This document shows, piece by piece, positions 14,676 through 48,193 of a DNA stretch of 64,000 bases. Below the pieces are notes generated by a model, which was not told the origin of the DNA, made no database searches, and saw only the letters and a program-made list of their open reading frames with translations. Every line of letters starts with the position of its first letter. The stretch's first letter is position 1. The DNA is from Reyranella massiliensis 521 (GTDB lineage: Bacteria; Pseudomonadota; Alphaproteobacteria; Reyranellales; Reyranellaceae). Location of the stretch: assembly GCF_000312425.1 (NCBI RefSeq), contig NZ_HE997181.1:1857829-1921828 (forward strand), written 5' to 3'. The position numbers and the translations under genes were made by a program.

Positions 14676-14701
14676 CCCCATCCTGTCGTATCAGGCGCCC
14701 C

Positions 14702-15994: not shown

Positions 15995-16028
15995 ACGACG
16001 CCCTAGGAACGAGGCGACGGAGGAGACG

Positions 16029-17015: not shown

Positions 17016-17124
17016 TCGTCCAGCACCTGGGCCTAGTCGCCCGGCGCTGGGCTTAGCCGCAAATCGCTGGAGGGGCTGACGCGGCGGGTTGGCAGGGCCA
17101 CCCGCCCGTGCGAGCCTTCCGGGC

Positions 17125-17616: not shown

Positions 17617-17626
17617 CGCGGCGTTT

Positions 17627-18576: not shown

Positions 18577-18661
18577 GCTTCCCCACCCGAAATCTCGCGC
18601 GGGAACCTAGCAGGGCTCGTGCGGTAAGTCGTCCACAGCGCATTCGCGCTAAGGTGCCTTC

Positions 18662-20497
18662 ATGTCCGATAGTGTCATTTCCAGCGATGCGAGAGCCGAG
18701 CGCGCGGCGTTTCTCGGCATCGAACGTTCGTTGACGGGGCGGCGCTGGGCGGCCCGACTGGCCGACGAGCGCACAGCGCTCGCGATCGGCCAGCGCCATG
18801 GCCTGCCGGACGCAATCTGCCGATTGCTGGCGGCGCGCGACGTTGCGCTGGAGGCGGTTCCGGACTTTCTCGACCCGACCCTGCGCAAGTTCCTGCCCGA
18901 TCCGTCGCACCTCAAGGATATGGACGCCGCGGTCGCCCGCCTGGTGCATGCCGTCCGTCAGGGCGAGCGCATCGTCGTGTTCGGCGACTACGACGTCGAT
19001 GGCGCGACCTCGTCGGCACTGCTGCTGCGTTTCTTCCGCGCCGTGGGCGGCGATATCGGCGTCTACATTCCCGACCGCCGCAAGGAGGGTTACGGGCCGA
19101 ACGCGACCGCGCTGGTCAAGATCAAGGAGGAGGGCGCCTCGGTCGTCGTCACCGTCGATTGCGGCGTCACCGCCTTCGAACCGTTGGCCGAAGCCAGGCG
19201 CGTCGGGCTCGACCTGATCGTGATCGACCATCACATGGCGGAGATCGCGCTGCCCGAGGCCATCGCCGTGGTCGATCCCAACCGGCTCGACGACGAGAGC
19301 CCGCACAAGCAGCTCGCCGCCGTGGGCGTAGCCTTCCTGCTGGCGGTCGGCGTCAACCGGGCCCTGCGCGAGGCCGGCTGGTACAGCACATCGCGGCCGG
19401 AGCCCGACTTGCGACAGTGGCTCGACCTCGTGGCGCTGGGCACGGTGTGCGACGTCGTCCCGCTGGTTGGCGTCAATCGCGCGCTGGTGCGGCAGGGCCT
19501 GCAGGTCATGGCGCAGCGGCGCAATGCCGGCCTGGCCGCGCTCGCCGACGTGGCACGCCTGAAGGAACCGCCGGGCGCCTATCATCTGGGCTTTCTCCTG
19601 GGGCCGAGGGTCAATGCCGGCGGCCGCGTTGGACAGGCCGACCTTGGCGCGCGGCTGCTCTCCAGCGACGATCCGCACGAGGTGGGGGCGCTGGCGCTTC
19701 GGCTCGACGAATTCAATGCCGAACGCCGCGCCATCGAGCGTGAGGTGCTCGACCAGGCGATCGCCCGCATCGAAGGGCTGTATGGCCCCGACCGCAAGGG
19801 CCTGCCCTCGGTGCTACTGGTCGAGAGCGAGGGCTGGCATGTCGGCGTGATCGGCATCGTGGCCAGCCGGCTGGTGGAGCGCTACGGCCGGCCGGCCTTC
19901 GTGATCGGCATGGACGGCGAACTGGGCAAGGGCTCGGGACGCTCCGTGCGCGGCGTCGATCTCGGCGCGGCGGTGATCGCGGCGCGGCAGGCGGGCCTGC
20001 TGCTCAATGGCGGCGGCCATGCCATGGCGGCGGGCCTCACCGTTGCGCGACCGGCCTTGCCGGATCTGGCGCATTTCCTCGATACGCGGATCGCCCCGCA
20101 GCTTGGCGCAGCACCTGCCGTGCGCGAACTCGGCATCGATGCCGCCCTGGCGCCCGCCGCGGCAACCCAGGAACTGGTCGATATGATCGAGCGGGCGGGG
20201 CCGTTCGGCGCCGGCAACGCGCTGCCACGCTTTGCGCTGACCGGCGTACGCGTGAGTTATGCCCAGCCGGTGGGCGAGGGACATGTGCGCTGCACATTAG
20301 TGGGTGCGGAGCGCGGCCGGATCGAGGCCATCGCTTTCCGGGCCAACCAGACAGCTCTGGGCCCGGCTTTGCTCGATTCTGCGCGGCCCGTGCTGCATGT
20401 CGCGGGCGCCCTGCGGATCGACCGTTTCGGTGGTCGGGAGAGCGTGCGCCTGCAGATCGACGACGCCGCCCCGGCGGCCGGTTCCGTTCTGGGCTGA
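18662..20497 (+). CDS. recJ: Single-stranded-DNA-specific exonuclease RecJ
   Basis: A 611-residue 5'-3' ssDNA exonuclease for RecF-type recombination and mismatch repair. DHH-domain metal motifs are FGDYDVDG (107-114), DCG (166-168) and DHH (189-191); the DHHA1 domain has GLLLNGGGHAMAAGL near 440-455; an OB-fold lies at the C-terminus. Length is typical. tRNA-Glu follows 55 bp downstream. Confidence 0.97.
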   Translation: MSDSVISSDARAERAAFLGIERSLTGRRWAARLADERTALAIGQRHGLPDAICRLLAARDVALEAVPDFLDPTLRKFLPDPSHLKDMDAAVARLVHAVRQGERIVVFGDYDVDGATSSALLLRFFRAVGGDIGVYIPDRRKEGYGPNATALVKIKEEGASVVVTVDCGVTAFEPLAEARRVGLDLIVIDHHMAEIALPEAIAVVDPNRLDDESPHKQLAAVGVAFLLAVGVNRALREAGWYSTSRPEPDLRQWLDLVALGTVCDVVPLVGVNRALVRQGLQVMAQRRNAGLAALADVARLKEPPGAYHLGFLLGPRVNAGGRVGQADLGARLLSSDDPHEVGALALRLDEFNAERRAIEREVLDQAIARIEGLYGPDRKGLPSVLLVESEGWHVGVIGIVASRLVERYGRPAFVIGMDGELGKGSGRSVRGVDLGAAVIAARQAGLLLNGGGHAMAAGLTVARPALPDLAHFLDTRIAPQLGAAPAVRELGIDAALAPAAATQELVDMIERAGPFGAGNALPRFALTGVRVSYAQPVGEGHVRCTLVGAERGRIEAIAFRANQTALGPALLDSARPVLHVAGALRIDRFGGRESVRLQIDDAAPAAGSVLG

Positions 20498-32541: not shown

Positions 32542-32555
32542 TTGACTTGCATCAA
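32542..32555 (+). promoter_or_regulatory. FNR/FixK-type box upstream of 32614
   Basis: TTGACTTGCATCAA, one mismatch from TTGAT-N4-ATCAA. It lies 58 bp before the ATG of the next gene, a spacing that allows class II activation (centre near -41.5). Confidence 0.7.
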
Positions 32556-32613: not shown

Positions 32614-32922
32614 ATGTCACAAAACCGTACAACCGACACGATCAGGACGGCCTCTAGCTCGCACAATGCGGGTCTTCCCAAGGTTGATGCCGACGGAATC
32701 GGCGATCAATGGGAAGCCCGGCGTTGGGGACGTGGCTTCTTGCGGCTGTGGATTGCGAGTGCGGTGATTTGGGTTGGCATGGTTGGACTGTTCGCGCTCA
32801 GCGATTCGTACAGCCAGGAGCGTCTGGAACTCGCCGCTTGGGCCTTTGTTCCTCCCACTTGCACTCTTTTCGTAGTACTCGCGCTCGTCTGGATTTGGCG
32901 AGGCTTTCGGTCTGGGGCTTGA
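32614..32922 (+). CDS. Small two-helix membrane protein
   Basis: A 102-residue protein: polar N-terminal 40 residues, then two membrane helices (FLRLWIASAVIWVGMVGLFA and AWAFVPPTCTLFVVLALVWIW) separated by a short charged loop. Good ribosome site GCGGAGGC. No family recognised. It is the first gene after an FNR-type box and lies 7 bp before the lipoprotein gene, so they share an operon. Confidence 0.72.
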   Translation: MSQNRTTDTIRTASSSHNAGLPKVDADGIGDQWEARRWGRGFLRLWIASAVIWVGMVGLFALSDSYSQERLELAAWAFVPPTCTLFVVLALVWIWRGFRSGA

Positions 32923-32929
32923 ACCGTAA

Positions 32930-34036
32930 ATGAAGGCAATTCGAATTCCGGCCATTCTTGCCGCTGCGTCGATTGCCTCGGCGATTGGCGCTTGCAGCAG
33001 CATTGGTCCGGGCACTGTTACGCGCGACCGAGCCGACTACAGCGCCGCGATTGGCGATTCATGGAAGCAGCAGACGCTGCGCAATATAGTAAAGCTGCGT
33101 TATGGCGATTTCCCGGTCTTCATGGAAATTGCACAGGTGATTACCGGCTATACTTTCGCAACGACCGCTACGGCAGGCCTGAGTGCTGCGAATTTCACAC
33201 CGTCATCGATCGGCGGGCCTGTGCCTGCCATTGGCGGGAGCGTAGGCGCAGGTGCCACCTACATCGATCGTCCGACGGTGGTCTATGCGCCGCTGACCGG
33301 AAACGATTTCATCAAGACGCTGATGCGGCCGATCCCGCCGTCCGCCGTCTTGTTCCTGCTGCAGTCCGGATATTCGGCCACCATCGTCATGCCGATTGCG
33401 GTTGATTCGATCAATGGCGTCGCCAATGAATCGAGGCGCGTCGGCATGAGCAGACCCGGCGACCCGGAGTTCACCCGCCTGGCCCAGGTCCTTTACGAGT
33501 TGCAGCGCCTCAATGCGCTGCAGATCCGGGTCGATCGCGCGAAGGACAATTCCGAGACCGCGGTCGTTGGATTCCCACCGGCCAACGTGACGCCCGAAGT
33601 GGCAGCGAAGATTGCCGAGGTAAAACGCATCCTACACTTGACCGGGACGGGACGGAGTCATCCGGTACGCTATGGCGGCTGGTCCGGAAAGGGGGACGAA
33701 ATCGCCATTGCGACCCGGTCGATGCTACAGGTCATGATGGAACTTGGCATCTTTGCTCAGGTGCCAGAAGCCGATATCGTCGGCGGCAAGGCAACCGTAG
33801 GAGCCGGCAGCAGCGCCTTGCCGGGCGGCGAGCATCCGCTGGTGCTGAACATCCAGAGTGGTCCGTCGCCGCCATCCGAAGCCTTTGCCGCCATCGAATA
33901 CAAGGGGCGCTGGTTCTGGATCTCCGAGAACGACATCCGCTCGAAGTCCATATTCACGGGCGTGATGTTGCTCTTCTCGATCTCGGATGTCGGTGTGCGC
34001 ACACCGTCGCCTGTCGTCACGATACCCGCTCAGTGA
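32930..34036 (+). CDS. Putative lipoprotein of unknown function
   Basis: A 368-residue protein with a signal peptide ending in a lipobox (SAIGACSS, Cys at 22). The mature part begins RADYSAAIGDSWKQQTLRNI, with VKLRYGDFPVFMEIAQVITGY and VYAPLTGNDFIKTLMRPIPPS, and ends in an Ile/Ser-rich segment (WFWISENDIRSKSIFTGVMLLFSI). I have seen this type annotated only as hypothetical. It probably sits in the outer membrane facing the periplasm. Co-transcribed with the small membrane protein 7 bp upstream; ends 53 bp before the next FNR-type box. Confidence 0.78.
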   Translation: MKAIRIPAILAAASIASAIGACSSIGPGTVTRDRADYSAAIGDSWKQQTLRNIVKLRYGDFPVFMEIAQVITGYTFATTATAGLSAANFTPSSIGGPVPAIGGSVGAGATYIDRPTVVYAPLTGNDFIKTLMRPIPPSAVLFLLQSGYSATIVMPIAVDSINGVANESRRVGMSRPGDPEFTRLAQVLYELQRLNALQIRVDRAKDNSETAVVGFPPANVTPEVAAKIAEVKRILHLTGTGRSHPVRYGGWSGKGDEIAIATRSMLQVMMELGIFAQVPEADIVGGKATVGAGSSALPGGEHPLVLNIQSGPSPPSEAFAAIEYKGRWFWISENDIRSKSIFTGVMLLFSISDVGVRTPSPVVTIPAQ

Positions 34037-34089: not shown

Positions 34090-34103
34090 TTGATGTGCAT
34101 CAA
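34090..34103 (+). promoter_or_regulatory. Perfect FNR/FixK-type box upstream of DUF2252 operon
   Basis: TTGATGTGCATCAA is an exact match to TTGAT-N4-ATCAA. It lies 79 bp before the DUF2252 start. Confidence 0.8.
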
Positions 34104-34182
34104 AGCTCCCCTGTAACGCAGCTGTAGCATCTATCCTCGCGTACGTTGCTCTTCGGCGTGCGCCCCACCGAGGGGGTAATCC

Positions 34183-35610
34183 ATGGGCAAGGTAACCAAG
34201 CTACCGGCGCGTAGAGATATACCCGAAACCAAGCGCCCCGTGCCCTCGGTACCGGCCAGCGATCTTCTCGCGGCAGGCAAGCGTCTCCGCGAGGCGATCT
34301 CACTCGAAAGCCAGGGCGAATGGAAGCGGCACAAGGATCGGGCGGATCCGGTCGAGCTGCTTCAAGCCTCCGACGCCGGCCGCGTTCCTCAGCTCATCCC
34401 GATCAAGTACGGGCGGATGCTGCAAACGCCGTTCACTTTCTACCGGGGCGCGGCAGGCGTGATGGCCGCTGATCTCGCCACCACACCCGATATCGGCGTC
34501 AATGTCCAAGCATGTGGCGACTGCCATCTGATGAACTTTGGCGGCTTCGCCACGCCGGAACGCAACATCACTTTCGACATCAACGACTTCGACGAGACGT
34601 TGCCGGCCCCTTGGGAATGGGACGTCAAGCGGCTGGTCGCCTCGTTTGTCCTCGCGGCTCGTGCCAACGGGCTATCGGATACCGCCGGACGCGACGCCGC
34701 CGTGAGCTGTGCCCGCAGCTATCGAGAGCGGCTGCGGGAAGTGGCCGAGATGAGCCCGCTCGAAGCCTGGTACACACATATTGGCGTGGAAGATCTCTTG
34801 AATGCGATCGACGACAAGGCTGCAAAGAAGCGCTTGCGCAAGCGGCTTGAAAAAGCCCAGGAGCAGAAAGACAAGTCCTCCGAGCTGGTGTACCCCAAGC
34901 TGGCCGAAATGGTCGGTGGTGAGGTGCACATCAAGGATCAGCCGCCGCTGATCTTTCACCCGGATTTTGTACATGAGCCGAATTTCAAGCCCGTAGTCGA
35001 CCAGGCGCTGGCCGACTACCGGGCAACTCTTTCCGACGACCGCAAAGCTCTGCTGGACCGTTACCGCCTGGTCGATGTGGCGCTCAAGGTCGTGGGAATC
35101 GGCAGCGTAGGCCGTTATTGCGCGATTGGCCTGTTCATGTCGTCGTCGAACGAGCCTCTGTTTCTTCAGTTCAAGCAGGCCGTTCCGTCGGTGCTAGAGC
35201 CCTACGCTGGCAAGAGCCTTTATGGTAACGCCGGCCAGCGGGTGGTGGAGGGGCAGCGCCTTATGCAATCGGCCTCCGACATCTTCCTCGGCTGGTCGGT
35301 CGGGATGGAAGGGCGACATCTCTATGTGCGTCAGTTGCGCGACGCGAAGATCAAGCCGGTGGTGGAGGCGTTCGATCGCAGAATACTGGAACTCTACGGT
35401 CAACTGTGCGGCTGGGCGCTGGCTCGGGCGCATGGTCGTGCCAGTCATCCGTGGCTGGTGAGCGGCTATATCGGCACCAGTGATGCGTTCGACAAGGCAA
35501 TGGGTAAGTTTGCGATCACCTATGCTGATCAGGCCGAACGTGATCATGCGGCACTGAAGGCGGCGGTGAGTGCCGGAAAGATCGAGGCGTATATCGAGGA
35601 AGACCGCTAG
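34183..35610 (+). CDS. DUF2252 family protein, paralogue 1
   Basis: A 475-residue DUF2252 protein. Conserved blocks: KYGRMLQTPFTFYRGAAGVM (75-94), CGDCHLMNFGGFATPERNIT (111-130) with FDINDFDETLPAPWEWDVKR, VVGIGSVGRYC (303-313), LFLQFKQAVPS (326-336), and the C-terminal WALARAHGRASHP. GDCHxxN plus DINDFD resembles the catalytic and metal motifs of phosphotransferase-fold kinases, and GIGSVG plus FLQFK a glycine loop and lysine, but in swapped order. Activity is unproven. No signal peptide. The paralogue at 41278 aligns without gaps at the N-terminus. First gene of an operon with CYTH and SulP genes, behind a perfect FNR-type box. Confidence 0.92.
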   Translation: MGKVTKLPARRDIPETKRPVPSVPASDLLAAGKRLREAISLESQGEWKRHKDRADPVELLQASDAGRVPQLIPIKYGRMLQTPFTFYRGAAGVMAADLATTPDIGVNVQACGDCHLMNFGGFATPERNITFDINDFDETLPAPWEWDVKRLVASFVLAARANGLSDTAGRDAAVSCARSYRERLREVAEMSPLEAWYTHIGVEDLLNAIDDKAAKKRLRKRLEKAQEQKDKSSELVYPKLAEMVGGEVHIKDQPPLIFHPDFVHEPNFKPVVDQALADYRATLSDDRKALLDRYRLVDVALKVVGIGSVGRYCAIGLFMSSSNEPLFLQFKQAVPSVLEPYAGKSLYGNAGQRVVEGQRLMQSASDIFLGWSVGMEGRHLYVRQLRDAKIKPVVEAFDRRILELYGQLCGWALARAHGRASHPWLVSGYIGTSDAFDKAMGKFAITYADQAERDHAALKAAVSAGKIEAYIEEDR

Positions 35611-35632
35611 TCGTCCATCGGGGAAGCAGCCT

Positions 35633-36133
35633 ATGGCGACCGAGATCGAACGGAAATTCCTGTTGGCCGGTGACGGCTGGCGTACGCAGTTTACGCATCG
35701 AAAGCGCATCCGGGACGGGCTCGTCGCAACCGCAGGCCGGCGCAAGGTGAGAGTACGAGCTTACGATGATCGGGCGACGCTGACCATCAAGGCCAAGACC
35801 GCCAGTTTGGGCGATGCAGAATACGAATACGAAATCCCATTGACGGATGCCGAGGAACTGCTGGCGACACACTGCGATGGCAGAGTGCTCAGCAAGACGA
35901 GGTACTACGTCCCCTATAAGGGCTTCGTGTGGGAGATCGATGAGTATGACGGCATTCTCAGTGGCGTGGTGTTGGCCGAGGTTGAGCTATCCCGAGAAGA
36001 TGTTGAGGTCCCCCTTCCTTCGTGGGTGGGGGAGGAAATAACCGGCAGACCTGAGTACAGGAAGAGCAACATGCATGTGGCACGCCTAGCTGCGCTTGCG
36101 ACCGACGGCGACACGACCCCTCGAAAGTATTGA
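35633..36133 (+). CDS. CYTH-domain protein (inorganic triphosphatase-like)
   Basis: A 166-residue CYTH domain: signature EIERKFLL at residues 4-11, strands RRKVRVRAYDDRATLTIKAK, EYEYEIPLTDAEELL, the YYVPYKGFVWEIDEYDG block and VLAEVELSREDVEV. The Glu/Arg/Lys residues line the triphosphate tunnel of the family (CyaB, ThTPase, bacterial inorganic triphosphatases). ATG 35633 starts just before the signature; the frame upstream is open but overlaps the DUF2252 end. It lies 22 bp after DUF2252 and 9 bp before the SulP gene. Substrate probably a triphosphate or nucleotide; not determined here. Confidence 0.93.
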   Translation: MATEIERKFLLAGDGWRTQFTHRKRIRDGLVATAGRRKVRVRAYDDRATLTIKAKTASLGDAEYEYEIPLTDAEELLATHCDGRVLSKTRYYVPYKGFVWEIDEYDGILSGVVLAEVELSREDVEVPLPSWVGEEITGRPEYRKSNMHVARLAALATDGDTTPRKY

Positions 36134-36142
36134 GGGGTAACA

Positions 36143-37816
36143 ATGCGGTGGCGGGAGTTTTTCCCCATAACTGAATGGGTCGCCGGCTACTCCCTTAAGC
36201 GGCTGGGCCCCGACGGCATCGCTGGCTTGTCTCTGGCCGCGTTCGTTATTCCCGAGTCGCTAGCCTATGCGTCGCTGGCAGGCTTGCCGCCGGTATCCGG
36301 TCTCTATTGCTACCTCGCCGCGGGCCTGGCCTACGCCGTATTCGGCACGAGCCGACAATTGGCGGTGGGCCCAACGTCGGCCCTGGCGCTCGCAGTTGCT
36401 GCCGGCATTGCCACCCTCGGCGGCGGTGATCCGACACGGGTGGCCGCCTTGGGAGCGTCCATCGCACTGTTGGTTGGCTTGATTGCCATTGGTGGCCGCT
36501 TTATCGGGCTGGCCAACCTTGCTTCCTTCTTCTCCGATTCGGTTGTGACGGGCTTTAAGACCGGCGCAGCTCTGTACATCGCATCGACCCAATTGCCGAA
36601 GCTCCTTGGGCTCGAAGGAGGCAGCGGCAACTTCTTCGAGCGGCTTTTCAATGTCGGAACAATGATACCGGACATCTCGCTTCCGTCGTTGGCGATTGGC
36701 GGGCTGGCGATCGCGCTCTTTCTACTGCTGGAGTGGAAGCTGCCCAGTCGACCGACCACGTTGATCGTGGTCGCGGCCGCGATAGCGGCGACCGGCTTCC
36801 TCGGCCTGGGCAAGCTCGATGTCCGGCTGGTGGGCGACCTGCCGCAGGGTCTGCCGACCTTGGGCCTCTTGCCGATATCGATGGCCGATCTCGGTGATCT
36901 CCTGCCGACGGCGTTTGCTTGCTTTCTGCTAGCCTACAGCGAAACCATTTCGGTGGCGCGCAGCTTCGCTCAGAAGCGAGGTTACGAAATCGATCCGTCG
37001 CAGGAGCTTACGGCTCTCGGTGCTTCCAACGTCGCCACGGCCCTGGCTAGCGGCTTTCCAGTGGCCGGCGGCATGTCGCAAACGGCGGTCAACGACATGA
37101 ACGGCGCCACCTCGTCGGTTTCGCTCGTCGTGACCTCGATCGCCGTCGCGCTGACCCTCGCTTTTTTCACAGGCCTGTTCCGCGATCTGCCCGAGCCCGT
37201 GCTGGCAGCCATCATCCTGATGGCCGCCAAGCATCTGGTGAAGCTCGAGGAGTTGCGCGAGCTCAAGAACGCGTCGCGCACCGAGTTCGCGATCTCGCTT
37301 CTCGCGCTGTTCGGCGTCCTGGCCTTCGGGCCCTTGCAGGGTCTGTTGCTGGCGGCGGTAGGCTCGCTGGTCATGCTGATCGGGCGCGCTTCCCGGCCGG
37401 CCGTCGCGGTGTTGGCGCGCGATCCGGCAAGCGGTCACTACGTGAACAAGGAGAGATATCCGGCGGCCCTGGAGCCGCCCTCCGTGCTGGTGTTGCGCAC
37501 CCTCGGGGGCTGGCTCTATTTCAACGCAGAGCAGATCCGGCGCCGCTTCCAGGAGCTCGTGGCGCAGACCTCGCGCCCCTTGACCACAGTGGTGATCGAC
37601 TGCTCCGTAGTGCCCATAATCGACATTACGGCCCTGACCAGCTTGCGCGTGTTCGCCGCCACCATGAAGCGCCGCGGCGTTGTGGTACGGCTTGCCGAGT
37701 TGCACGATGGCGTCGCCGATACGTTGCGCAGGCGGGGTGCCGAAGCCGATTTCGGCTCGATTGTTGCCCATCGCACCGTCGATCAGTGTGTGGCGGCAAG
37801 CGCTGGCAGGATTTGA
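36143..37816 (+). CDS. SulP-family anion transporter with STAS domain
   Basis: A 557-residue SLC26/SulP carrier: RLGPDGIAGLSLAAFVIPESLAYASLAGLPPVSGLY (conserved first helix block), then VFGTSRQLAVGPTSALAL, many helices, YSETISVARSFAQKRGYEIDPSQELTALGASN and GGMSQTAVND, ending with a cytoplasmic STAS domain (about 440-557, VVIDCSVVPIIDITALTSL). It moves sulfate, bicarbonate or related anions; which one cannot be told. Co-operonic with DUF2252 and CYTH. An arylsulfatase with its own FNR-type box lies 8 kb away, making sulfate a reasonable guess. Confidence 0.93.
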   Translation: MRWREFFPITEWVAGYSLKRLGPDGIAGLSLAAFVIPESLAYASLAGLPPVSGLYCYLAAGLAYAVFGTSRQLAVGPTSALALAVAAGIATLGGGDPTRVAALGASIALLVGLIAIGGRFIGLANLASFFSDSVVTGFKTGAALYIASTQLPKLLGLEGGSGNFFERLFNVGTMIPDISLPSLAIGGLAIALFLLLEWKLPSRPTTLIVVAAAIAATGFLGLGKLDVRLVGDLPQGLPTLGLLPISMADLGDLLPTAFACFLLAYSETISVARSFAQKRGYEIDPSQELTALGASNVATALASGFPVAGGMSQTAVNDMNGATSSVSLVVTSIAVALTLAFFTGLFRDLPEPVLAAIILMAAKHLVKLEELRELKNASRTEFAISLLALFGVLAFGPLQGLLLAAVGSLVMLIGRASRPAVAVLARDPASGHYVNKERYPAALEPPSVLVLRTLGGWLYFNAEQIRRRFQELVAQTSRPLTTVVIDCSVVPIIDITALTSLRVFAATMKRRGVVVRLAELHDGVADTLRRRGAEADFGSIVAHRTVDQCVAASAGRI

Positions 37817-37896
37817 GCGTCGCGGTCGTTGAAGTTCGCGACGACCGGCACGCCGTCGAAAGCTGATCCACGGTCGCGGCATTGGCGGGGGTGATC

Positions 37897-38682
37897 ATGT
37901 CCGGTTCGCTTGCCATTCGCGCGCTGCTGCTTGGACAACGCATAGAGACGCGCGGCCTCGAACATCAGGATACGATAGCCCTGGCGCCGCTGACGTTGCG
38001 AGCAGGGCAGCAGGGTATCGCCTTCCTGTTCCGCTATGGAGTCGCCGTCCTCGTGGGGCTTTCGCATGCCGAGGAGGAGGCGCTCCTGGGGACGCTGCGC
38101 GCGAGCATCGTGGAGGCTCTGCCAACACCGGAAACCGATCAGGTCCAGATTGTCGTGACACCGGACGGCGAGGACCAGATCGAGCCTTCCGGCGCCATTG
38201 TGTTGAAGGATGCGTCTACCGAACGACTGCAGATCCTCGCCAACGTGCTGTCAAAGAGCGTCGTGTTGGCGCATCACGAATCGCAGATCGCAGCGACCTT
38301 CGACAAGATTGAACCGCTGGCCGCCGGCATCCGGCGGAAGGGCCGTGTCGATCGCAAGGCCTCGCAACTCATTCAGCAGATTGGCGACATATTGCTGACA
38401 CAGCATCGGATGGTGGGACGGGTTGCGATCGAGGACAAGCCGGACGTTCTTTGGGACCGCCCTGAACTCGAGCGTCTCTACGCCCGGTTGGCGGATGAAT
38501 ACGAACTGCTCGAACGCAACAGCGCGATCGACCGAAAACTCACACTGGTTGGTGAAACAGTCCGGACACTTCTGGAGCTTGTGCAGGATCAGCGCAGCGT
38601 ACGTCTGGAATGGTATATCATCTGCCTCATCGTTATCGAGATCCTGTTGTCCATCTATGAGATCTTCGTTCGCTCTCATTGA
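37897..38682 (+). CDS. RMD1/DUF155 family protein with C-terminal membrane anchor
   Basis: A 261-residue protein. The DUF155 body includes LLGQRIETRGLEHQD, GIAFLFRYGVAVLVGLSHAEE, then LANVLSKSVVLAHHESQIA, HRMVGRVAIEDKPDVLWDRP and YARLADEYELLERN, and a terminal helix RLEWYIICLIVIEILLSIYE, the hallmark layout of RMD1/Sif2-type proteins (known from yeast and mitochondria, function obscure). ATG 37897 has a G-rich site; a TTG 15 bp earlier is possible. It lies 80 bp after SulP, probably the last gene of that operon. Confidence 0.88.
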   Translation: MSGSLAIRALLLGQRIETRGLEHQDTIALAPLTLRAGQQGIAFLFRYGVAVLVGLSHAEEEALLGTLRASIVEALPTPETDQVQIVVTPDGEDQIEPSGAIVLKDASTERLQILANVLSKSVVLAHHESQIAATFDKIEPLAAGIRRKGRVDRKASQLIQQIGDILLTQHRMVGRVAIEDKPDVLWDRPELERLYARLADEYELLERNSAIDRKLTLVGETVRTLLELVQDQRSVRLEWYIICLIVIEILLSIYEIFVRSH

Positions 38683-40269: not shown

Positions 40270-40416
40270 TCAAGGGAGCGTAGTCGGCCGCCGGATCCAT
40301 GCCGATGAAGACCGAGTGCATCGTTCTTCCTGACGGGCCGCAGCCGTGGCGGTGCCGGCGAGCAGCTCGCGCTGCGACAGGTCAACCTGCGTACGGAGAT
40401 GCGTCGCCTTGTTCAT
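40270..40416 (-). CDS. Small frame coupled to the TMEM175-like gene (possible remnant)
   Basis: 48 residues beginning MNKATHLRTQVDLSQRELLA, overlapping the TMEM175 stop as ATGA. The start resembles Tat-type leaders of periplasmic redox proteins, but twin arginine is absent. Another frame just downstream (from 40321) reads MHSVFIGMDPAADYAPLTAN, so this may be the broken 5' end of a longer gene. The rest of 40085-40269 shows nothing else. Confidence 0.35.
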   Translation of the reverse strand: MNKATHLRTQVDLSQRELLAGTATAAARQEERCTRSSSAWIRRPTTLP

Positions 40417-41003
40417 GATGCCCTTTTCAGACGTCGCTCCCTGAGTCGGTTCGCGATCACCACCACGGAGAAGCCCATCACATAAGGCCACAGCGCGTGG
40501 CGAGGACCGATGAAGCTCCAGCCGATTGCAAGCCCGGACGAAACGATCAGAACGGCAAGCAGGAATTGATGATCTCGCTGCTTGCCCGGCTCCACATCCG
40601 GAATGAGGGCCAATAAACGCAGGCCGATGGCGGAAAGGATCAATGTGTTGCCGGCATACAACCAGATTGCGGGCGCCAGGTTGGGAAAGCGACCGACGAC
40701 GATGGTGACGAACGGAAAACAGGTGGTGAAAAGCAGGTAGAGCAGCCACCAGTGGACGTATTCGCTGCCGAGGTTCTCGTCCGGCGACCGCACCTGAATA
40801 CCCGATAGCCAGCGGAGCCCCAGCACGCCGAAGCTCAGGGCATAGGGCAGGAACTTGGGTGTCAGGGCGATCAAGCCTTGAATGAGCTCGCTCGCATCAT
40901 GCGGTTGGAAGTCATCCGGGAGGCGGAGGTCGAGCACGAGCAACGTCATGGCGACGGCGAAGAGCCCGTCGGTCAGCGCGTCTAGGCGAGCGCGTGGATA
41001 CAT
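40413..41003 (-). CDS. TMEM175-like (DUF1211) potassium channel family protein
   Basis: A 196-residue membrane protein whose first helix has the family motif RLDALTDGLFAVAMTLLVLDL, the pore-lining helix of TMEM175 channels (usually FSDGVFAIAITLLV). Five further helices follow (FLPYALSFGVLGLRWLSG, LYLLFTTCFPFVTIVVG, and others) with a basic C-terminus. Prokaryotic members form potassium-selective tetramers. Start at ATG 41003 is chosen because the motif normally begins a few residues from the N-terminus; ATGs at 41027 and 41039 are alternatives. An FNR-type box at 41055 would suit start 41003. Confidence 0.85.
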   Translation of the reverse strand: MYPRARLDALTDGLFAVAMTLLVLDLRLPDDFQPHDASELIQGLIALTPKFLPYALSFGVLGLRWLSGIQVRSPDENLGSEYVHWWLLYLLFTTCFPFVTIVVGRFPNLAPAIWLYAGNTLILSAIGLRLLALIPDVEPGKQRDHQFLLAVLIVSSGLAIGWSFIGPRHALWPYVMGFSVVVIANRLRERRLKRAS

Positions 41004-41054
41004 CTGCTGTTGCGTCCTTCCAATCATCCCTCGCCGCATCTGCTTCCGCCTGCT

Positions 41055-41068
41055 TTGACTCAGATCAA
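41055..41068 (-). promoter_or_regulatory. FNR/FixK-type box between divergent genes
   Basis: TTGACTCAGATCAA. If it drives the minus strand, transcription would start near 41020, 17 bp before the TMEM175-like ATG at 41003. Confidence 0.65.
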
Positions 41069-41215
41069 ACCCCGGTGGAGCGGTGAAGTTTGCGTCGAGC
41101 CCGACGTATCAGGGTACGGATGTGTCGATGCAACACAACCATCCGTTCGATACGTCAAGCGAATGCAGATCGATGCCCGTTGCCGCGTCGCCCCGTGGTT
41201 GCATCATGCGAATGC

Positions 41216-41229
41216 TTGACTTGCATCAA
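41216..41229 (+). promoter_or_regulatory. FNR/FixK-type box upstream of second DUF2252 gene
   Basis: TTGACTTGCATCAA, identical to the box at 32542. It lies 48 bp before the TTG start of the gene. Confidence 0.7.
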
Positions 41230-41277: not shown

Positions 41278-42699
41278 TTGAACAACGTGGCAGCCTTTAC
41301 GGGTCCGGCTCAGACGCCGCTGGTCAGACGACCAGAGTATTCCATCCCTGCGGACGATCTCGTCGCAGCCGGCCAGCGTCTGCGCGATTCGGTCCCGCGG
41401 GCGAGTCAAGGTCTCTGGAAGAAGGACAAGCAACGGCTCGATCCACTTGAAATTCTGCGCGCCTCGGATGCTGGCCGGATTCCCGAGCTCGTCCCGATCC
41501 GTTACGGCCGGATGCTGCAATCACCCTTCGCCTTCTATCGAGGGGCGGCGGGCGTCATGGCCGCCGACCTCGCCGCGACACCCACCACGGGCATTCATGT
41601 CCAGGTCTGCGGCGACTGTCATCTGATGAATTTCGGCGGCTTCGCCACGCCTGAACGTAGCATCAACTTCGACATCAACGACTTCGACGAGACCCTGCCG
41701 GCGCCCTGGGAATGGGACGTCAAGCGGCTGGTCGCGTCGTTCGTGCTGGCGGCCCGGTCGAATGGCTTGTCGGATGCGGCTGGCCGCGACGCAGCCATCG
41801 CCTGTGCCCGGAGCTATCGCAAGCGGTTGCGGCAAGTGGCAGAGATGAGCCCGCTGGAAGCATGGTACACCCACATCGGTCTGGAAGAGTACCTCGGGCT
41901 GATCGACGATCCGGCTGACCAGAAGCGGGTGCGGCGCAGAATCGACAAAGCGAAAGAAGGAAGGGCATCTGACCTGGATTATCCGAAGTTGGCCAGGATG
42001 GTCGGCGGGGTGGTGCAGATCAAGGATCAACCTCCGCTCATCTATCACATGGATGTTCAGCATCAGGAGGGCTTCGGCGCCCTCACGGACAAGACGATGG
42101 CTGCTTACCGGGACAGCCTTCCGATTGACCGTCGCGCCCTGTTCGATCGCTACCGCTACGTCGACGGGGCGATGAAGGTTGTGGGGGTCGGAAGCGTCGG
42201 CCGGTACTGCTCTATCGGACTGTTCATGTCGTCGTCCAATGAGCCGCTGTTCCTGCAATTCAAGCAGGCCGTCCCGTCCGTTCTGGAGCCTTACGCGGGC
42301 AAGAGCCTGTTTGGCCACGCCGGGGAGCGGGTGGTCGAGGGCCAGCGCCTGATGCAGGCTTCATCGGATATTTTTCTTGGCCACACGATTGGGCCATTGG
42401 GCAACCAACTTTATGTCCGCCAGTTGCGCGACGCGAAGATCAAGCCTCTAGTCGAAACCTTCGATCGCGACATGATGAAGATCTACGGCAGGGCGTGCGG
42501 TTGGGCGCTGGCGCGGGCGCACGGCAAGGCCAGCCATCCGTGGCTGGTCACCGGCTATCTCGGAAACAGCGACGCGTTCGACGAAGCGATGGGTGATTTC
42601 GCCATTGCTTATGCCGACCAGGCCGAGCGCGACCACGCGGCTCTCAAGGCTGCGGTAGGCGCAGGCAGGATTCAGGTCCAGATCGAAGAAGATAGGTAA
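41278..42699 (+). CDS. DUF2252 family protein, paralogue 2
   Basis: A 473-residue paralogue of the product at 34183 with the same blocks at the same positions: RYGRMLQSPFAFYRGAAGVM (75-94), CGDCHLMNFGGFATPER (111-127), DINDFDETLPAPWEWDVKR, VVGVGSVGRYCSIGL, LFLQFKQAVPS and ALARAHGKASHP. The start is TTG 41278: AAGGGGAGG lies 5 nt upstream, and from this codon the GDCH motif falls at the same residue as in paralogue 1. The frame open to 41083 would run through the FNR-type box. It stands alone, 150 bp before the patatin gene. Confidence 0.9.
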   Translation: MNNVAAFTGPAQTPLVRRPEYSIPADDLVAAGQRLRDSVPRASQGLWKKDKQRLDPLEILRASDAGRIPELVPIRYGRMLQSPFAFYRGAAGVMAADLAATPTTGIHVQVCGDCHLMNFGGFATPERSINFDINDFDETLPAPWEWDVKRLVASFVLAARSNGLSDAAGRDAAIACARSYRKRLRQVAEMSPLEAWYTHIGLEEYLGLIDDPADQKRVRRRIDKAKEGRASDLDYPKLARMVGGVVQIKDQPPLIYHMDVQHQEGFGALTDKTMAAYRDSLPIDRRALFDRYRYVDGAMKVVGVGSVGRYCSIGLFMSSSNEPLFLQFKQAVPSVLEPYAGKSLFGHAGERVVEGQRLMQASSDIFLGHTIGPLGNQLYVRQLRDAKIKPLVETFDRDMMKIYGRACGWALARAHGKASHPWLVTGYLGNSDAFDEAMGDFAIAYADQAERDHAALKAAVGAGRIQVQIEEDR

Positions 42700-42851: not shown

Positions 42852-44042
42852 ATGCGCAAGTTCCTGTCATTCGCGATGCTGCTGGCCGGAGTCCTCGGCG
42901 CCTGCTCGTATCCCGAGCGCGGCCCCGGCGTGCCTTCGACCCACACCACCGTCGCATTGCCGCTGGGCATCCCCAATGCCCGGTTCTTCGCCGACGGCGA
43001 TCCCAAGCCCATGATGGAGGAAGCCGCCCGCGCCTACCAAAGGGAGGAGGCGACACGGCGCACCGCAGGCGGACCGACGCGCCCGCCGCCGGTCTACTAC
43101 CTGGCGATTTCCGGCGGCGGCGATGACGGCGCTTTCGGCACCGGATTGCTGAATGGTTGGGCCGCGACAGGAATGCGGCCCCAGTTCAATTTCGTGACGG
43201 GCGTCAGCACCGGCGCCCTGATCGCGCCCTTCGCCTATCTCGGATCCGAGTACGATGCCGTCATGGCCGGGATGTATACGACCCTGACACCCGACAAGGT
43301 CTATCGACCGCGGGCACTCACGGCCGCGCTGTTCGACGACGCCATGGCCGATACCAGTCCGTTGGCCGAGGTGATCGCACGCTACACTGACCAGAAGATG
43401 TTCGATGCCATCGCCCGGGAGTACGGGAAGGGTCGCCTGCTGCTGATCGGCACGACCGACCTCGATGCCGAGCGACCGGTAATCTGGAACATAGGCGCGA
43501 TCGCGGCCAGCGGCCATCCCGGTGGGCTGGAGCTGTTCCGCAAGATCCTGCGCGCCTCGGCGGCCATTCCCGGCGCCTTCCAGCCGGTCATGGTCGATAT
43601 CGAGATCGACGGCCAGAAGTACCAAGAGATGCATGTCGACGGCGGCGCCGTTGCCCAGCTCTTCATCTATCCATCGTCGATCAACATCGCCGAGAGCGGA
43701 CCACGCCGCGAACGGCACGCGTACGTCATCCGCAACGGCAAGCTCACGCCGGGCTACGAAACGAGCAAGCGGCGAACCATCTCGGTCGCCGGCCGCGCCA
43801 TCAGCACCATGCTGACGTCGAGCGGGCGAAACGACGTGCTGCGCACCTACCTGCTCGCGCAGCGCGACGGCATCGACTACAACCTCGCTTATATAGGGTC
43901 TGACTTCACCACTACCGAGATCGGCATGTTCGAGCCGGCCTACATGCAGGCTCTCTACGCCTACGGCTTTCAGAAGGGTAGGGATGGTCGGGCCTGGCAC
44001 AAGCGGCCACCCCAGATCGACCCTGCGGCCGTGCGCCAGTAG
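42852..44042 (+). CDS. Patatin-like phospholipase lipoprotein
   Basis: A 396-residue protein with a lipobox (LLAGVLGAC, Cys18) and a patatin domain: oxyanion loop SGGGDDGAFGTG (88-98), nucleophile S119 in GVSTG, catalytic D264 in VDGGAVAQ. The Ser-Asp dyad is complete. It is expected to be a periplasm-facing lipase or acyl hydrolase. RGPGVPSTHTTVALPLG follows the lipobox. The alpha/beta-hydrolase follows after 46 bp, suggesting paired lipid or ester hydrolysis. Confidence 0.92.
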   Translation: MRKFLSFAMLLAGVLGACSYPERGPGVPSTHTTVALPLGIPNARFFADGDPKPMMEEAARAYQREEATRRTAGGPTRPPPVYYLAISGGGDDGAFGTGLLNGWAATGMRPQFNFVTGVSTGALIAPFAYLGSEYDAVMAGMYTTLTPDKVYRPRALTAALFDDAMADTSPLAEVIARYTDQKMFDAIAREYGKGRLLLIGTTDLDAERPVIWNIGAIAASGHPGGLELFRKILRASAAIPGAFQPVMVDIEIDGQKYQEMHVDGGAVAQLFIYPSSINIAESGPRRERHAYVIRNGKLTPGYETSKRRTISVAGRAISTMLTSSGRNDVLRTYLLAQRDGIDYNLAYIGSDFTTTEIGMFEPAYMQALYAYGFQKGRDGRAWHKRPPQIDPAAVRQ

Positions 44043-44088: not shown

Positions 44089-45588
44089 ATGGTCCCTGAA
44101 CGTCGCCTGACCAGAGTATTGCGGCGCTTGATCATCTGGCCGGTTGCTGTTCTGGCTGCAGCCGTCGTGGGCTTTTCGGCCTATGCCGTCCTGGCCCTTG
44201 GACCCTTGGCGCCCTGGCACACCCTCGATCTCAGGCAGGAGTTCAGAGCAGCACGAGATGCCCACCTGGACTTCGCCGGACTGCTCGCCCTCGAGGGGCG
44301 CCTGTTCGAAGAGCTGCGCGGTGCCAAGGAACTCCGGAGCGGCGATATAGCCGAAGAGAGGTCATCCCGGTTCTCTCCTCGCAGCTGGATCGCCCGGTTG
44401 ACCGGCGCCGCGAACGACGGCGCCTCCGATAACATCCATGTCGCGCCTTACAACCGCACGTTCGAGCTCGTGCCGGAGGAGCGGCGGGGCTCAGCGCTGT
44501 TGATCCATGGCCTGACGGACGCACCTTACTCGATGCTGGCGTTGGCACGCAGGCTGCACGCCGGCGGCCTTCATGTCGTGGTGTTGCGGTTGCCGGGGCA
44601 TGGTACCGTGCCGGCTGGCCAGCTCCACATGACCCTCCAGGACTGGCGTGCCGTCGTGCGCATAGCGGCCCGGCACGCGGCTTCGCTGGCGATGCCGAAC
44701 CAACCCTTCTATGTCGGCGGCTATTCCACAGGCGGCACGCTCGCCTTGACCCATGCGATCGAGAGCCTGGCCGATGAGACGCTGCGCCAGCCGACGCGCG
44801 TTTTGCTTGTATCGCCCGCGATCGAGTTGCCGCGTATCGCCGTCCTGACGCGGATCATCGACGCGCTGGCGTTCCTGCCGGGACTGGAAGCGGCGCACTG
44901 GCAGGAGATCCTGCCGGAATACGACCCCTACAAGTACAATTCGTTCGCGGTGAACTCGACGCGCCAGGTGCTGGCCGCCACCAACGCGCTGACGCGCGCG
45001 TTCGAGCAGGCGCAGGTGGCGGGCCTGCTGGACAAATTGCCGCCGGTGATCGCCTGGCAGTCGGTCGTCGACTCGACGGTGGGTGCCAGGGGCGTATTCG
45101 ATTCTGTGTTCGGACGTCTCGTAGGCGCGCAGCATGAGTTGATACTGTTCGACGTCAACCGCCTGGCCGTATTTCGGTCCTTGGAGAGTGCTCGAAGCGC
45201 CGACTTGCCGGGAGTACTGAGAAGCCTTCAGCGTCCACATTCCTTGACAGTGGTCGCCAACCGCGACGACGAATCGGAGCGTGTCATGATGCGTCGGCGC
45301 AGGCCAGGGCAGGGGTGGACCGAGAGCGAGACCGACCTCGCTTGGCCCAGAAGCATCGTATCGGTCGGCCACCTTGCACTTTGCTTTCTGCCGGACGACC
45401 CGGTTTACGGGTTCCTTCCGGGCAGCGGAGCGAACGGCCAGCCGGCGTTGGGATCGCTCTTCCTGCGCGGCGAAGCTGGAGCGCTGTCCCTGCCGCTTTC
45501 GATGTTCACGCGTCTTCGCTCCAATCCTTTCTTCTCGCTCATTGCCGGCCGGGTGGACGAGATGCTGGAGGCCGATCTGCGGAGATGA
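44089..45588 (+). CDS. Membrane-anchored alpha/beta-hydrolase
   Basis: A 499-residue protein with an N-terminal membrane helix (IIWPVAVLAAAVVGFSAYAVLAL), a linker of about 80 residues and an alpha/beta-hydrolase domain: oxyanion segment ALLIHGLTDAPYSM, GHGTVPAGQLH, nucleophile S213 in GYSTGG, and a late VGHLALCFLPDDP region with the likely catalytic His. The pattern is that of serine aminopeptidase/lysophospholipase-type hydrolases. Its helix puts the enzyme in the periplasm. Likely co-transcribed with the patatin gene; convergent with the sulfatase gene. Confidence 0.88.
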   Translation: MVPERRLTRVLRRLIIWPVAVLAAAVVGFSAYAVLALGPLAPWHTLDLRQEFRAARDAHLDFAGLLALEGRLFEELRGAKELRSGDIAEERSSRFSPRSWIARLTGAANDGASDNIHVAPYNRTFELVPEERRGSALLIHGLTDAPYSMLALARRLHAGGLHVVVLRLPGHGTVPAGQLHMTLQDWRAVVRIAARHAASLAMPNQPFYVGGYSTGGTLALTHAIESLADETLRQPTRVLLVSPAIELPRIAVLTRIIDALAFLPGLEAAHWQEILPEYDPYKYNSFAVNSTRQVLAATNALTRAFEQAQVAGLLDKLPPVIAWQSVVDSTVGARGVFDSVFGRLVGAQHELILFDVNRLAVFRSLESARSADLPGVLRSLQRPHSLTVVANRDDESERVMMRRRRPGQGWTESETDLAWPRSIVSVGHLALCFLPDDPVYGFLPGSGANGQPALGSLFLRGEAGALSLPLSMFTRLRSNPFFSLIAGRVDEMLEADLRR

Positions 45589-45653: not shown

Positions 45654-48092
45654 TCAATCTCGGGCGAGCGCGCGTGCTGCCTCCTTTTCGAGGTCGATGT
45701 ACTGCGCTTTTTCGACGGTGACGCCGACGGCGAATATTACCCCGCCGCTAAACCTCCCAGGCGACTTGTACTCCTGGCTGACCGTGTCGCCGCTGTCGTA
45801 ACCGACGCAGAGGCCGTCGCCGGACAGCGTGAATTTGCCAAGCTGCGTGCGCATCGGACCTTCGGCGACGACCTTATCGTTGACATAGAGTTTGGTCCTG
45901 CCGAGAGACTCACCATGCTTGCCCGAACTCTCGCGGGTGAACTCCATCCCGACTGTGTACTTGCCGGGCTTCAGTTCACCGGAAACGAATTTCTGTTCCG
46001 GCTTGATGCCCAGAAAGTTGTACACGTAGTACAATTTCTTGTTCTTGATGAAGAGCGAGTGACCTCCAAAACGCGAGCCGTGAGCGAAAATCACACCCGA
46101 CGCATTCGGATCTGTAATCTCGATGTTGGCGAGAATCTTGTACGATCGGCCGCGCACACTGACGGCAACGCCTTCAGGCACCGGCGAGGTGCCCGGGTAG
46201 TAGACATACCTTTCGCGGGCTGCTTCTTCGGTGGGCCGTTCAACTCCCAGCTGCTCTGCAGCGCTTCGGTCGTCGATCGGCAGCACCATGTTTTTATCTG
46301 CTTCTTCGAACCATGCCTTTATGAGCGCTCGAAGCTTGTCGGGATACTCCTTGGCGAGGTCCTTGGACTCCGACCGGTCGGCGTCCACATGATAGAGCTC
46401 CCAACGGTCCTCATCGAAATTACCTTTGCCAGTGAACGGCGCATGGACAGCGGCAGCCTTCCAGCCATCCTCCCAGATCCCGCGTGTTCCGAGCATCGCG
46501 TAATACTGGCGTCTTTTCCGTGTCGGATCGTGGGGCCTGGCATCAAAGGTGTAGCGCATCGAGACGCCGGCGAGTGGGTATTGATCTATGCCGTGATACA
46601 CTTTCGGCATTTCCAGTCCGATGATCTCCAAGAGCGTCGGTACGATATCGACGGCGTGATGATACTGATCGCGAATCTCACCGCGAGCCTTGATGCCCTT
46701 TGGCCACGAGATGACCAGCGGATCGATGGTCCCGCCTGAGTATTGCGAGTAGCGCTTGAACATCTTGAAGGGGGTTGAGAATGCTGCAGCCCATCCTGTC
46801 GGATAGTGCGGATAGGTGTTCGGCCCGCCCAGATCGTTCAAGGCCTTCATGTTCTCCGCCAGATCGTCCGGGTAATTGTTGAAGAACTTGTTCTCGTTCA
46901 CTGAACCGTTCGGCGTGCCCTCTCCGGACGCTCCATTGTCCGCCGCGTAGAGCACGATAGTATTTTCGAGTTGGCCTGACTCCCTCAGGTAATCGATGAT
47001 GCGGCCAATTTGCACGTCCGTATATTCGGAGAACCCGGCATAGACCTCGGCCATATGGGAGAATAGTTTCTTCTCGTCGGAACTAAGCGAGTTCCATGGG
47101 CGCACAAAGTCTGCCTTGTTGGCCACCTCATCGGGCAAGGGGTTGAGCGGCGTGAGTTGCGTTCCCTTCGGGAGCACGCCCTTGTCGATCATGCGTGCAA
47201 GTACCCATGTCCGGTAAGCGTCATAACCGTCGTCGAACTTACCCTTGTACTTGGCAATGTATTCTTGCGGCGCATGATGGGGCGCGTGATTGGCGCCGGG
47301 GTTGTACCACATGTACCAGGGCCTTGATGGATTCGTGGCCTTCTGGTCGCGGACCATCGCGATGGCGCGGTCGGCGAGATCCTTCGAGAGGTGGTAGCCC
47401 TTTTCAGGCCCGTACGGCGGCTCAATGAAATGATTGTCTTCAACGAGATCCGGATACCACTGATTGGTTTCTCCACCGATAAAGCCGTAGAAGCGGTCGA
47501 AGCCCTTCTGGAGGGGCCATAGTTTCCGGCTGGCGCCCGATGCGACGTCCTGCTCGGCGACGTTATGATTTTTGCCCAGCCAAAAGGTGCTGTAGCCGTT
47601 GTCCTGCAGGATCTGACCTATGGTGGCGGCCTGATCGGGCAACCGGCCATGCGCTCCGGGAAAGCCGTTGGCGCCTTCCGTAATGGCAGCCATGCCGTTC
47701 ACGTTATGGTTTCGTCCGGTCAGCAGCATCGATCGGGTCGGTGAACATAACGCCGCCGTATGAAACTGTGTGTAAGTCAGGCCCTCGGCGGCTATCTTGT
47801 CCAGAGTCGGCATGTTGATCCGGCCACCATAGGGCGACCACGCCGCAAGGCCGGTGTCGTCGTAAAGAATGAAAAGAACGTTTGGCGCACCCTCGGGCGC
47901 CTTCTTCGGAATATACGGTGTCCAGTCGGGCGTAGATTTCCGAACATCGAGATCGATGACGCCCTTGAACGTCGACGGCGCATTTTGGGCCGATGCCATC
48001 GACATCAGGACTCCGCATGTTGCGAGGCTGATGGCTGCGAGCGGTAACATCATGCGTGTGCTGTCACGCAATTTCAGCTTGGCAGTGGTCAT
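45654..48092 (-). CDS. Periplasmic arylsulfatase (sulfatase family)
   Basis: An 812-residue sulfatase with a signal peptide (LAAISLATCGVLMSMASAQ). Metal-site D78-D79 (LYDDTG), the formylglycine motif C116-S-P-T-R with SMLLTGRN, then HNVAEQDV, MWYNPGANHAPHHAP, ADNGASGEG and WPKGIKARGEIRDQYHHAVDI. Length and the C-terminal beta domain resemble large Pseudomonas-type (PAS-like) arylsulfatases. The Cys must be converted to formylglycine, but no maturase gene lies in the window. It releases sulfate from sulfate esters. An FNR-type box stands 88 bp upstream. Confidence 0.94.
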   Translation of the reverse strand: MTTAKLKLRDSTRMMLPLAAISLATCGVLMSMASAQNAPSTFKGVIDLDVRKSTPDWTPYIPKKAPEGAPNVLFILYDDTGLAAWSPYGGRINMPTLDKIAAEGLTYTQFHTAALCSPTRSMLLTGRNHNVNGMAAITEGANGFPGAHGRLPDQAATIGQILQDNGYSTFWLGKNHNVAEQDVASGASRKLWPLQKGFDRFYGFIGGETNQWYPDLVEDNHFIEPPYGPEKGYHLSKDLADRAIAMVRDQKATNPSRPWYMWYNPGANHAPHHAPQEYIAKYKGKFDDGYDAYRTWVLARMIDKGVLPKGTQLTPLNPLPDEVANKADFVRPWNSLSSDEKKLFSHMAEVYAGFSEYTDVQIGRIIDYLRESGQLENTIVLYAADNGASGEGTPNGSVNENKFFNNYPDDLAENMKALNDLGGPNTYPHYPTGWAAAFSTPFKMFKRYSQYSGGTIDPLVISWPKGIKARGEIRDQYHHAVDIVPTLLEIIGLEMPKVYHGIDQYPLAGVSMRYTFDARPHDPTRKRRQYYAMLGTRGIWEDGWKAAAVHAPFTGKGNFDEDRWELYHVDADRSESKDLAKEYPDKLRALIKAWFEEADKNMVLPIDDRSAAEQLGVERPTEEAARERYVYYPGTSPVPEGVAVSVRGRSYKILANIEITDPNASGVIFAHGSRFGGHSLFIKNKKLYYVYNFLGIKPEQKFVSGELKPGKYTVGMEFTRESSGKHGESLGRTKLYVNDKVVAEGPMRTQLGKFTLSGDGLCVGYDSGDTVSQEYKSPGRFSGGVIFAVGVTVEKAQYIDLEKEAARALARD

Positions 48093-48179: not shown

Positions 48180-48193
48180 TTGATCTGAATCAA
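48180..48193 (-). promoter_or_regulatory. FNR/FixK-type box upstream of arylsulfatase gene
   Basis: TTGATCTGAATCAA is an exact match to TTGAT-N4-ATCAA. Its centre lies about 94 bp before the sulfatase ATG, leaving a leader of roughly 50 nt if placed at -41.5. Confidence 0.8.

Follow-up and report, generated by a model that had tools for sequence, protein, structure and literature searches.

Do four adjacent genes of Reyranella massiliensis 521, which share a strand and a single upstream regulatory site, form a dedicated functional unit? The question is raised by a 64,000-nucleotide stretch of contig NZ_HE997181.1 (assembly GCF_000312425.1, positions 1,857,829 to 1,921,828; hereafter the window), in which plus-strand genes for a DUF2252 protein (34183..35610, Pfam E = 1e-139), a short NE1496-like CYTH/triphosphate tunnel protein (35633..36133, E = 4e-12), a SulP anion carrier with a C-terminal STAS domain (36143..37816, E = 4e-85) and an RMD1/DUF155 membrane protein (37897..38682, E = 4e-35, with a TTG at 37882 as alternative start) are separated by gaps of 22, 9 and 80 bp. 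A perfect TTGAT-N4-ATCAA box (TTGATGTGCATCAA, 34090-34103) lies 79 bp 5' of the DUF2252 start. Genes were called with a simple codon-usage script and families assigned with Pfam, and the four genes, their order, strand, spacing and single perfect box agreed with the original prediction, which had gone on to propose an oxygen-tuned metabolite or anion system. That prediction had overlooked a second DUF2252 gene in the window, 72% identical to the first, as well as the box-like sites that, from 32.5 to 48.2 kb, precede most of the surrounding transcription units. With moderate confidence, we read the four genes as a local assembly in an island of ~43 kb, predicted to be under FixK-type low-oxygen control, reshuffled, with a polyphosphate theme and with ties in relatives to polyphosphate and acetate energy metabolism, and not as a conserved system.

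Gene neighbourhoods across relatives bore directly on this question. The four genes were not found together in any relative examined, and neither CYTH nor RMD1 lay near DUF2252 at any of 47 loci of the genus and family. Around 40 such loci, picked by score and place on the contig rather than at random and including the three other copies of the home genome, there was no CYTH or DUF155 gene within ~8 kb; SulP was near DUF2252 at one of them (33% identity), and loci added later contributed one more (G037, 65% identity, 7.4 kb away). CYTH matches occurred in 13 of 76 genomes, the home genome included, and the ten best CYTH relatives had no DUF2252 or SulP nearby. Eight DUF155 relatives in the order likewise had no DUF2252, CYTH or SulP within their flanks, nor had 27 DUF155 loci of 4-21 kb from named contigs; in the profile survey, DUF2252, CYTH, SulP and polyphosphate genes were absent within 10 kb on 27 distinct DUF155 contigs, the sole sought family found there being one Crp-family gene (28 rows, 27 contigs). 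At the matching site in G012 (L083), anchored by four genes that match window 13419-20491 at 89-98% identity, a box and DUF2252 are followed by the gene for the 368-residue protein of window open reading frame (ORF) 32930 and a patatin gene, with no CYTH, SulP or RMD1; relative to G012, the window holds ~12 kb extra between the flanking genes and the island. The notion of one dedicated DUF2252-CYTH-SulP-RMD1 system can draw on the tight spacing, the single box and the joint presence of three of the four families at a locus in another family of the class (L197), yet no relative examined carries all four, the G012 site has its box and DUF2252 without the rest, and RMD1 lacks any recurring partner, so that we consider such a system very unlikely and, for RMD1, largely refuted. 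The conserved unit thus failed the neighbourhood survey that the prediction had itself named as a test, while the proposal of an oxygen-tuned system survived in part: comparative genomics places DUF2252, CYTH and SulP in one putative low-oxygen and polyphosphate gene pool and leaves RMD1 outside it. RMD1 is most likely a passenger, by its neighbourhoods a chance neighbour. A transcription stop between SulP and RMD1 was considered and rejected: although a hairpin can be drawn in the gap, shuffled versions of the 86-nt stretch fold equally well (z 0.42), and a search for terminator-like sites between the two genes gave none, so read-through from SulP into RMD1 is possible.

The box at 34090 proved to be one of many. 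FNR has a characteristic cysteine cluster, FixK an ExxSR recognition helix, and the box of a FixK/FNR-type operon was defined here as TTGAY-N4-RTCAA. When at most one mismatch is tolerated, six boxes occur in the window against 0.73 expected (0/100 shuffles reached six), and five of them fall within 32.5-48.2 kb. In the 5.79-Mb single-contig genome we counted nine perfect boxes versus none for a reversed control pattern, and 32 relaxed boxes (TTGAYNNNNRTCAA) versus three. Half of the relaxed boxes (16/32) are concentrated in a 43-kb and a 32-kb island that together make up 1.3% of the genome, seven at 1.8904-1.9336 Mb (the window region plus ~13 kb) and nine at 4.6126-4.6441 Mb; random placement never gave seven boxes in 43.2 kb (0/20000). 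The second island encodes Usp and Hsp20 proteins (Pfam), CBS and GroEL-like proteins, and a Crp-family protein whose gene lies a few kb from PAS-kinase and response-regulator genes. Boxes were also located 5' of a COX1-family oxidase gene, which we take to be of the cbb3 type, and 5' of a usp-like gene with hemN behind it and then PAS-kinase, response-regulator and Crp-family genes in FixL-FixJ-FixK style (the CBS and GroEL-like genes, the usp before hemN and the cbb3 type were read by eye, with no family search). Judged by their sequence, these are FixK/FNR-type boxes, above chance in number and near canonical targets.

As for the putative regulator, a search with PF13545 (HTH_Crp_2) gave 17 matches in the home genome, of which the best eight were inspected (of the nine weaker matches, three were above the cut-off). 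No FNR-like N-terminal cysteine cluster was present among these eight, whereas four (L217, L218, L220 and L223) have the ExxSR helix, two of them (L217 and L218) near PAS-kinase and response-regulator genes. Because none of the eight has the cluster, FixK-type control is favoured over FNR and a FixK-type regulator is the likelier one. The oxygen-linked control that had been proposed is supported by comparative genomics, but FNR was set aside in favour of a FixK-type protein on the eight matches inspected. Another regulator was suggested by a 7+4+7 direct repeat (CTGTAACGCAGCTGTAGC, 34111-34128) that lies between the box and the DUF2252 start with one mismatch to the Pho pattern used; were it a Pho box, the genes would be a PhoB phosphate-starvation operon, and a phosphate theme would suit CYTH and PPK2. 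Allowing up to two mismatches, however, the window yielded one match against 1.75 expected and 82 of 100 shuffles held at least one, so that, on this window-only count, the repeat is not above chance and PhoB control was rejected as scarcely credible.

A link between box and gene was found for DUF2252, a family found in 63 of 76 genomes of the order versus 15 of 241 genomes of the class (three of these 15 from the home genus) and represented by five genes in the home genome, two of them inside the window. A box lies upstream of 12 of 22 clade-A DUF2252 genes versus 0 of 26 genes of other clades (p = 9e-6, inflated by relatedness); without the window's two genes the clade-A count is 10/20, and the boxes stand at similar upstream distances. 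For this count the window gene (34180) and L083 were scored by hand, L105, with no box in its locus, was entered as a miss, the truncated L216 and eight of ten out-of-family rows were excluded, and a box upstream of the divergent neighbour of DUF2252 in L071 was not counted. An island partner was present within the locus for 10 of 21 clade-A loci outside the window and for none of 26 other-clade loci, with a partner set that omits patatin, BASS and DUF2254 (a patatin gene occurs at one clade-B locus and a BASS gene at another). In L079, a box-bearing DUF2252 gene stands amid Usp, CBS and GroEL-type genes. Furthermore, the order (counting the home genome) has ten copies of the 368-residue protein with at least 64% identity, and each of them has a DUF2252 gene or part of one no more than ~6 kb away, the partial ones being a 35-residue fragment where a contig ends in G048 and a truncated gene beside one G012 copy, while 12 full-length homologues of 35-40% identity have no DUF2252 within their flanks. 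This box-bearing DUF2252 clade was new to us.

The DUF2252 protein itself displays the motifs GDxHxxNFG (112-120), DFD (135-137) and GxGSxG (305-310) together with K331, which we assign, as an assumption, to a kinase catalytic loop, metal-binding aspartate, glycine loop and lysine, respectively. Across 59 DUF2252 rows G112, D113, H115, N118, D135, D137, G305, G310 and K331 are near-invariant (D113, H115, N118, D135, D137, G305 and G310 in 58/58, K331 in 59/59), which bears out the kinase-like motifs first noticed in this protein. The order is permuted, with the catalytic-loop and metal motifs preceding the glycine-rich loop and lysine, as would be expected of a circularly permuted kinase-like protein. 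DUF2252 is placed in the Pfam PKinase clan as used in the available text of PMC9758233, and set beside the clan's proteins there, DUF2252 too has the catalytic-loop and metal motifs ahead of the glycine loop and lysine. The literature mentions of DUF2252 examined gave no function in the portions available, and a search of viral contigs returned no DUF2252 relative.

For the CYTH protein, the nearest solved structures are 3typ (E = 8e-14) and NE1496 (2fbl, E = 2e-13), the latter presumably identical to NeuTTM; the window protein retains EIERKFL, which contains the ExExK motif, along with many other shared columns. The Pfam match, this motif and the similarity to NE1496 uphold the assignment as a triphosphatase-like protein, and the protein has the ExExK and tunnel residues by which CYTH/triphosphate tunnel proteins are predicted. 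The SulP protein, with Sulfate_transp and STAS domains (Pfam), is an SLC26-type carrier whose anion is not readable from sequence; it scores 364.6 bits against the NCBIfam sulP model, under the 380.45 cut-off. In relatives, DUF2252, CYTH and SulP recur, singly or jointly, with PPK2, CHAD, a DUF3141-Pta-FabI-AckA set, Usp, CBS, a Na/Ca exchanger and the 368-residue protein (the enoyl-reductase-like FabI profile also matches other short-chain dehydrogenases). One instance is L197, which within 17 kb reads AckA-FabI-Pta-DUF3141-(two genes)-DUF2252-SulP-(CYTH/CHAD)-PPK2-(one gene)-arginine deiminase; L179 and L180 have box-PPK2-SulP, and L290, outside the genus, has PPK2-SulP and CYTH-C39 within ~8 kb. 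In L180 (75-937, G019), PPK2 is split over two overlapping frames and is possibly broken or mis-sequenced. PPK2 next to SulP in L241 and the order DUF3141-Pta-AckA-FabI-CHAD-SulP-PPK2 in L242 serve as illustrations only, because both loci were chosen after the PPK2-SulP adjacency was known. Within 10 kb, PPK2 was found at 5 of 24 SulP loci (2/6 orthologues and 3/18 others in the class) versus 0 of 54 control rows, made up of 28 DUF155 rows (one contig twice) and 26 clade-B DUF2252 rows (p = 0.002, again inflated by relatedness); the choice of 20 SulP loci had been non-random, guided by score and position on the contig. Four of ten CYTH loci of the genus carry a link, to PPK2 (L185), the DUF3141 operon (L189), Usp/CBS with boxes (L188) or a box directly upstream (L192), a box ~300 bp upstream of CYTH in L191 not being counted. 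The profile survey of neighbours covered loci of at least 7 kb (omitting L184, L129, L029, L030, L205, L208, L214 and L241); in it L210 gave no DUF2252 anchor, and L006 and L194 are one contig. The recurring SulP-CYTH-DUF2252-PPK2 linkage was likewise new to us; among the matches listed, no title states a link between SulP and polyphosphate kinase or between FixK and SulP or tripolyphosphate, and we do not claim its absence from print. As a separate observation, in L272 (9791-12544, another family of the class) a box lies directly upstream of an Orn/Lys/Arg decarboxylase gene, itself behind a SulP gene.

Could shared regulation alone account for this pattern, with DUF2252, CYTH and SulP being unrelated stress or ion-homeostasis genes that have a low-oxygen promoter and an island in common but neither a biochemical link nor any special tie to polyphosphate? 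The island is indeed of mixed function, with a sulfatase, a patatin, a TMEM175 channel, a Na/Ca exchanger and a Crp gene, its boxes precede many separate units, and gene order and partners differ between genomes; nevertheless, SulP adjoins a polyphosphate-associated gene in varied orders, namely PPK2 (L179, L180, L241 and L290), CHAD (L242), CYTH-CHAD (L197) and CYTH (window), and we hold this explanation to be a serious one though rather unlikely. Several observations also weigh against the preferred reading of a low-oxygen island with a polyphosphate theme. Ten of 22 clade-A DUF2252 genes have no box, PPK2 is absent within 10 kb at 19 of 24 SulP loci, six of ten CYTH loci have no counted link (some of these contigs being short), and a stand-alone CYTH directly adjoining SulP was seen in the window only. 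In L197, L241, L242 and L290 the genes are associated without any strict box; together with the boxless clade-A genes, this means that the coupling between box and gene linkage is no more than partial, and hence the linkage is not a mere by-product of one box, nor is the box a constant part of it. In addition, a sequence search for solved structures found none similar to DUF2252 and a structure model from a two-row alignment reached a mean predicted local distance difference test score (pLDDT) of 35, so that the kinase fold rests on the motifs and the Pfam PKinase clan.

If the four genes do belong to a low-oxygen island, a drop in oxygen would cause a FixLJ-type pair to raise a FixK-type protein, which would act at the box at 34090 to drive DUF2252-CYTH-SulP transcription, with RMD1 perhaps reached by read-through. 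The island may then provide ATP without respiration through Pta-AckA and through PPK2 acting on stored polyphosphate, polyphosphate and acetyl-phosphate carrying the energy supply while respiration is limited. CYTH would convert inorganic tripolyphosphate, a short remnant of polyphosphate turnover, into pyrophosphate and phosphate, SulP may move an anion made or needed at low oxygen (phosphate, sulfate, bicarbonate or carboxylate), and DUF2252 would act as a circularly permuted kinase. In a bolder version, which we think distinctly improbable, DUF2252, CYTH, SulP and PPK2/CHAD would form a low-oxygen polyphosphate-use pathway in which PPK2 makes nucleotides at the expense of polyphosphate, CYTH clears tripolyphosphate as the end product, SulP exports or recycles the phosphate so released and DUF2252 is a kinase using or sensing short polyphosphate; if true, tripolyphosphatases and SulP carriers of this type would thereby acquire a role in physiology. 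The island reading already provides the uncharacterised, kinase-like DUF2252 with a regulatory and genomic setting and CYTH tripolyphosphatases with a candidate one in low-oxygen polyphosphate turnover, and suggests that some SulP carriers may serve polyphosphate-linked metabolism rather than plain sulfate uptake.

Known systems offer partial parallels, for which we presume that Herbaspirillum phaC2 corresponds to DUF3141, and we take Rv1739c of Mycobacterium tuberculosis to be a SulP protein. Regulons that respond to low oxygen and include Usp, oxidase, hemN and fabI genes are of a known kind: the Fnr targets listed in the available text on Herbaspirillum include the fixNOP oxidase operon, the hemN2 operon, the dksA-phaC2-fabI operon, which Fnr1 targets directly, and two uspA genes that Fnr1 and Fnr3 activate jointly (PMC5934665), and canonical FixK boxes are described, without their letters, in that on Rhodopseudomonas (PMC3050613). 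In the portions of these two sources available, none of DUF2252, CYTH and SulP was noted in the FixLJ-FixK/Fnr regulons, not all of them having been searched for. The DosR regulon of M. tuberculosis, as given in part of PMC4082495, lists the possible sulfate transporter Rv1739c and the heat-shock protein HspX, so that a sulfate-type transporter in a dormancy regulon parallels the island SulP, but the regulator and phylum differ, and no link to DUF2252, CYTH or PPK2 was noted in that text, where none was searched for. CHAD proteins are often encoded in operons with polyphosphate enzymes, and many have an N-terminal TTM (CYTH) domain (Iyer and Aravind 2002, cited in the available text of PMC6537752), whereas here a stand-alone CYTH shares an operon and its oxygen-type box with SulP and DUF2252. 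NeuTTM acts specifically as a tripolyphosphatase, an activity whose significance is described in the available text as far from clear (PMC3440374); NeuTTM/NE1496 (2fbl, 3typ) and the window CYTH are both short single-domain CYTH proteins with EIERKFL, to which the window adds a candidate metabolic and regulatory setting.

The remaining genes of the island surround the four-gene run. Ahead of it, a FixK/FNR-type box (TTGACTTGCATCAA, 32542..32555) lies upstream of a 102-residue ORF of no family (32614..32922, +) and of ORF 32930 (32930..34036, +), the lipoprotein-like 368-residue protein without a Pfam family, and cotranscription of the two is possible. Behind it, a TMEM175-type potassium channel homologue (40413..41039, -) is divergent from the second DUF2252 gene (DUF2252b, clade A, ~41278..42699, +), with one box between them (TTGACTCAGATCAA, 41055..41068) and another 5' of the likely DUF2252b start (TTGACTTGCATCAA, 41216..41229); an alternative GTG start at 41083 would place this latter box within the gene. 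There follow a patatin-like protein (42852..44042, +), homologues of which neighbour clade-A DUF2252 in G049 and G012 as well as a single clade-B DUF2252 (L101), an alpha/beta hydrolase (44089..45588, +) and a sulfatase (45654..48005, -) with a perfect box upstream (TTGATCTGAATCAA, 48180..48193). A second, different sulfatase-like gene, read by eye, also has a perfect box upstream, at genome position 3198258 (3.198 Mb), and the pair suggests that low oxygen governs the cleavage of sulfate esters. The island continues for ~13 kb past the window end, where it encodes a Na/Ca exchanger and C39, a 145-residue protein without a family, and carries a Crp-family gene, a box, DUF3141-Pta-FabI-AckA, a further box and PPK2. 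Ion-transport and membrane proteins (TMEM175, Na/H exchanger, bestrophin-like, Na/Ca exchanger and DUF2254) are abundant in the island and its relatives, at window 40413-41039 and 54096-55352, L071 10226-10978, L234 5707-6798 and L076 10723-12000. Finally, RND efflux genes border the island (window 62283-63980, by Pfam) or the SulP-PPK2 pair (L241 and L242, by eye) in three genomes.

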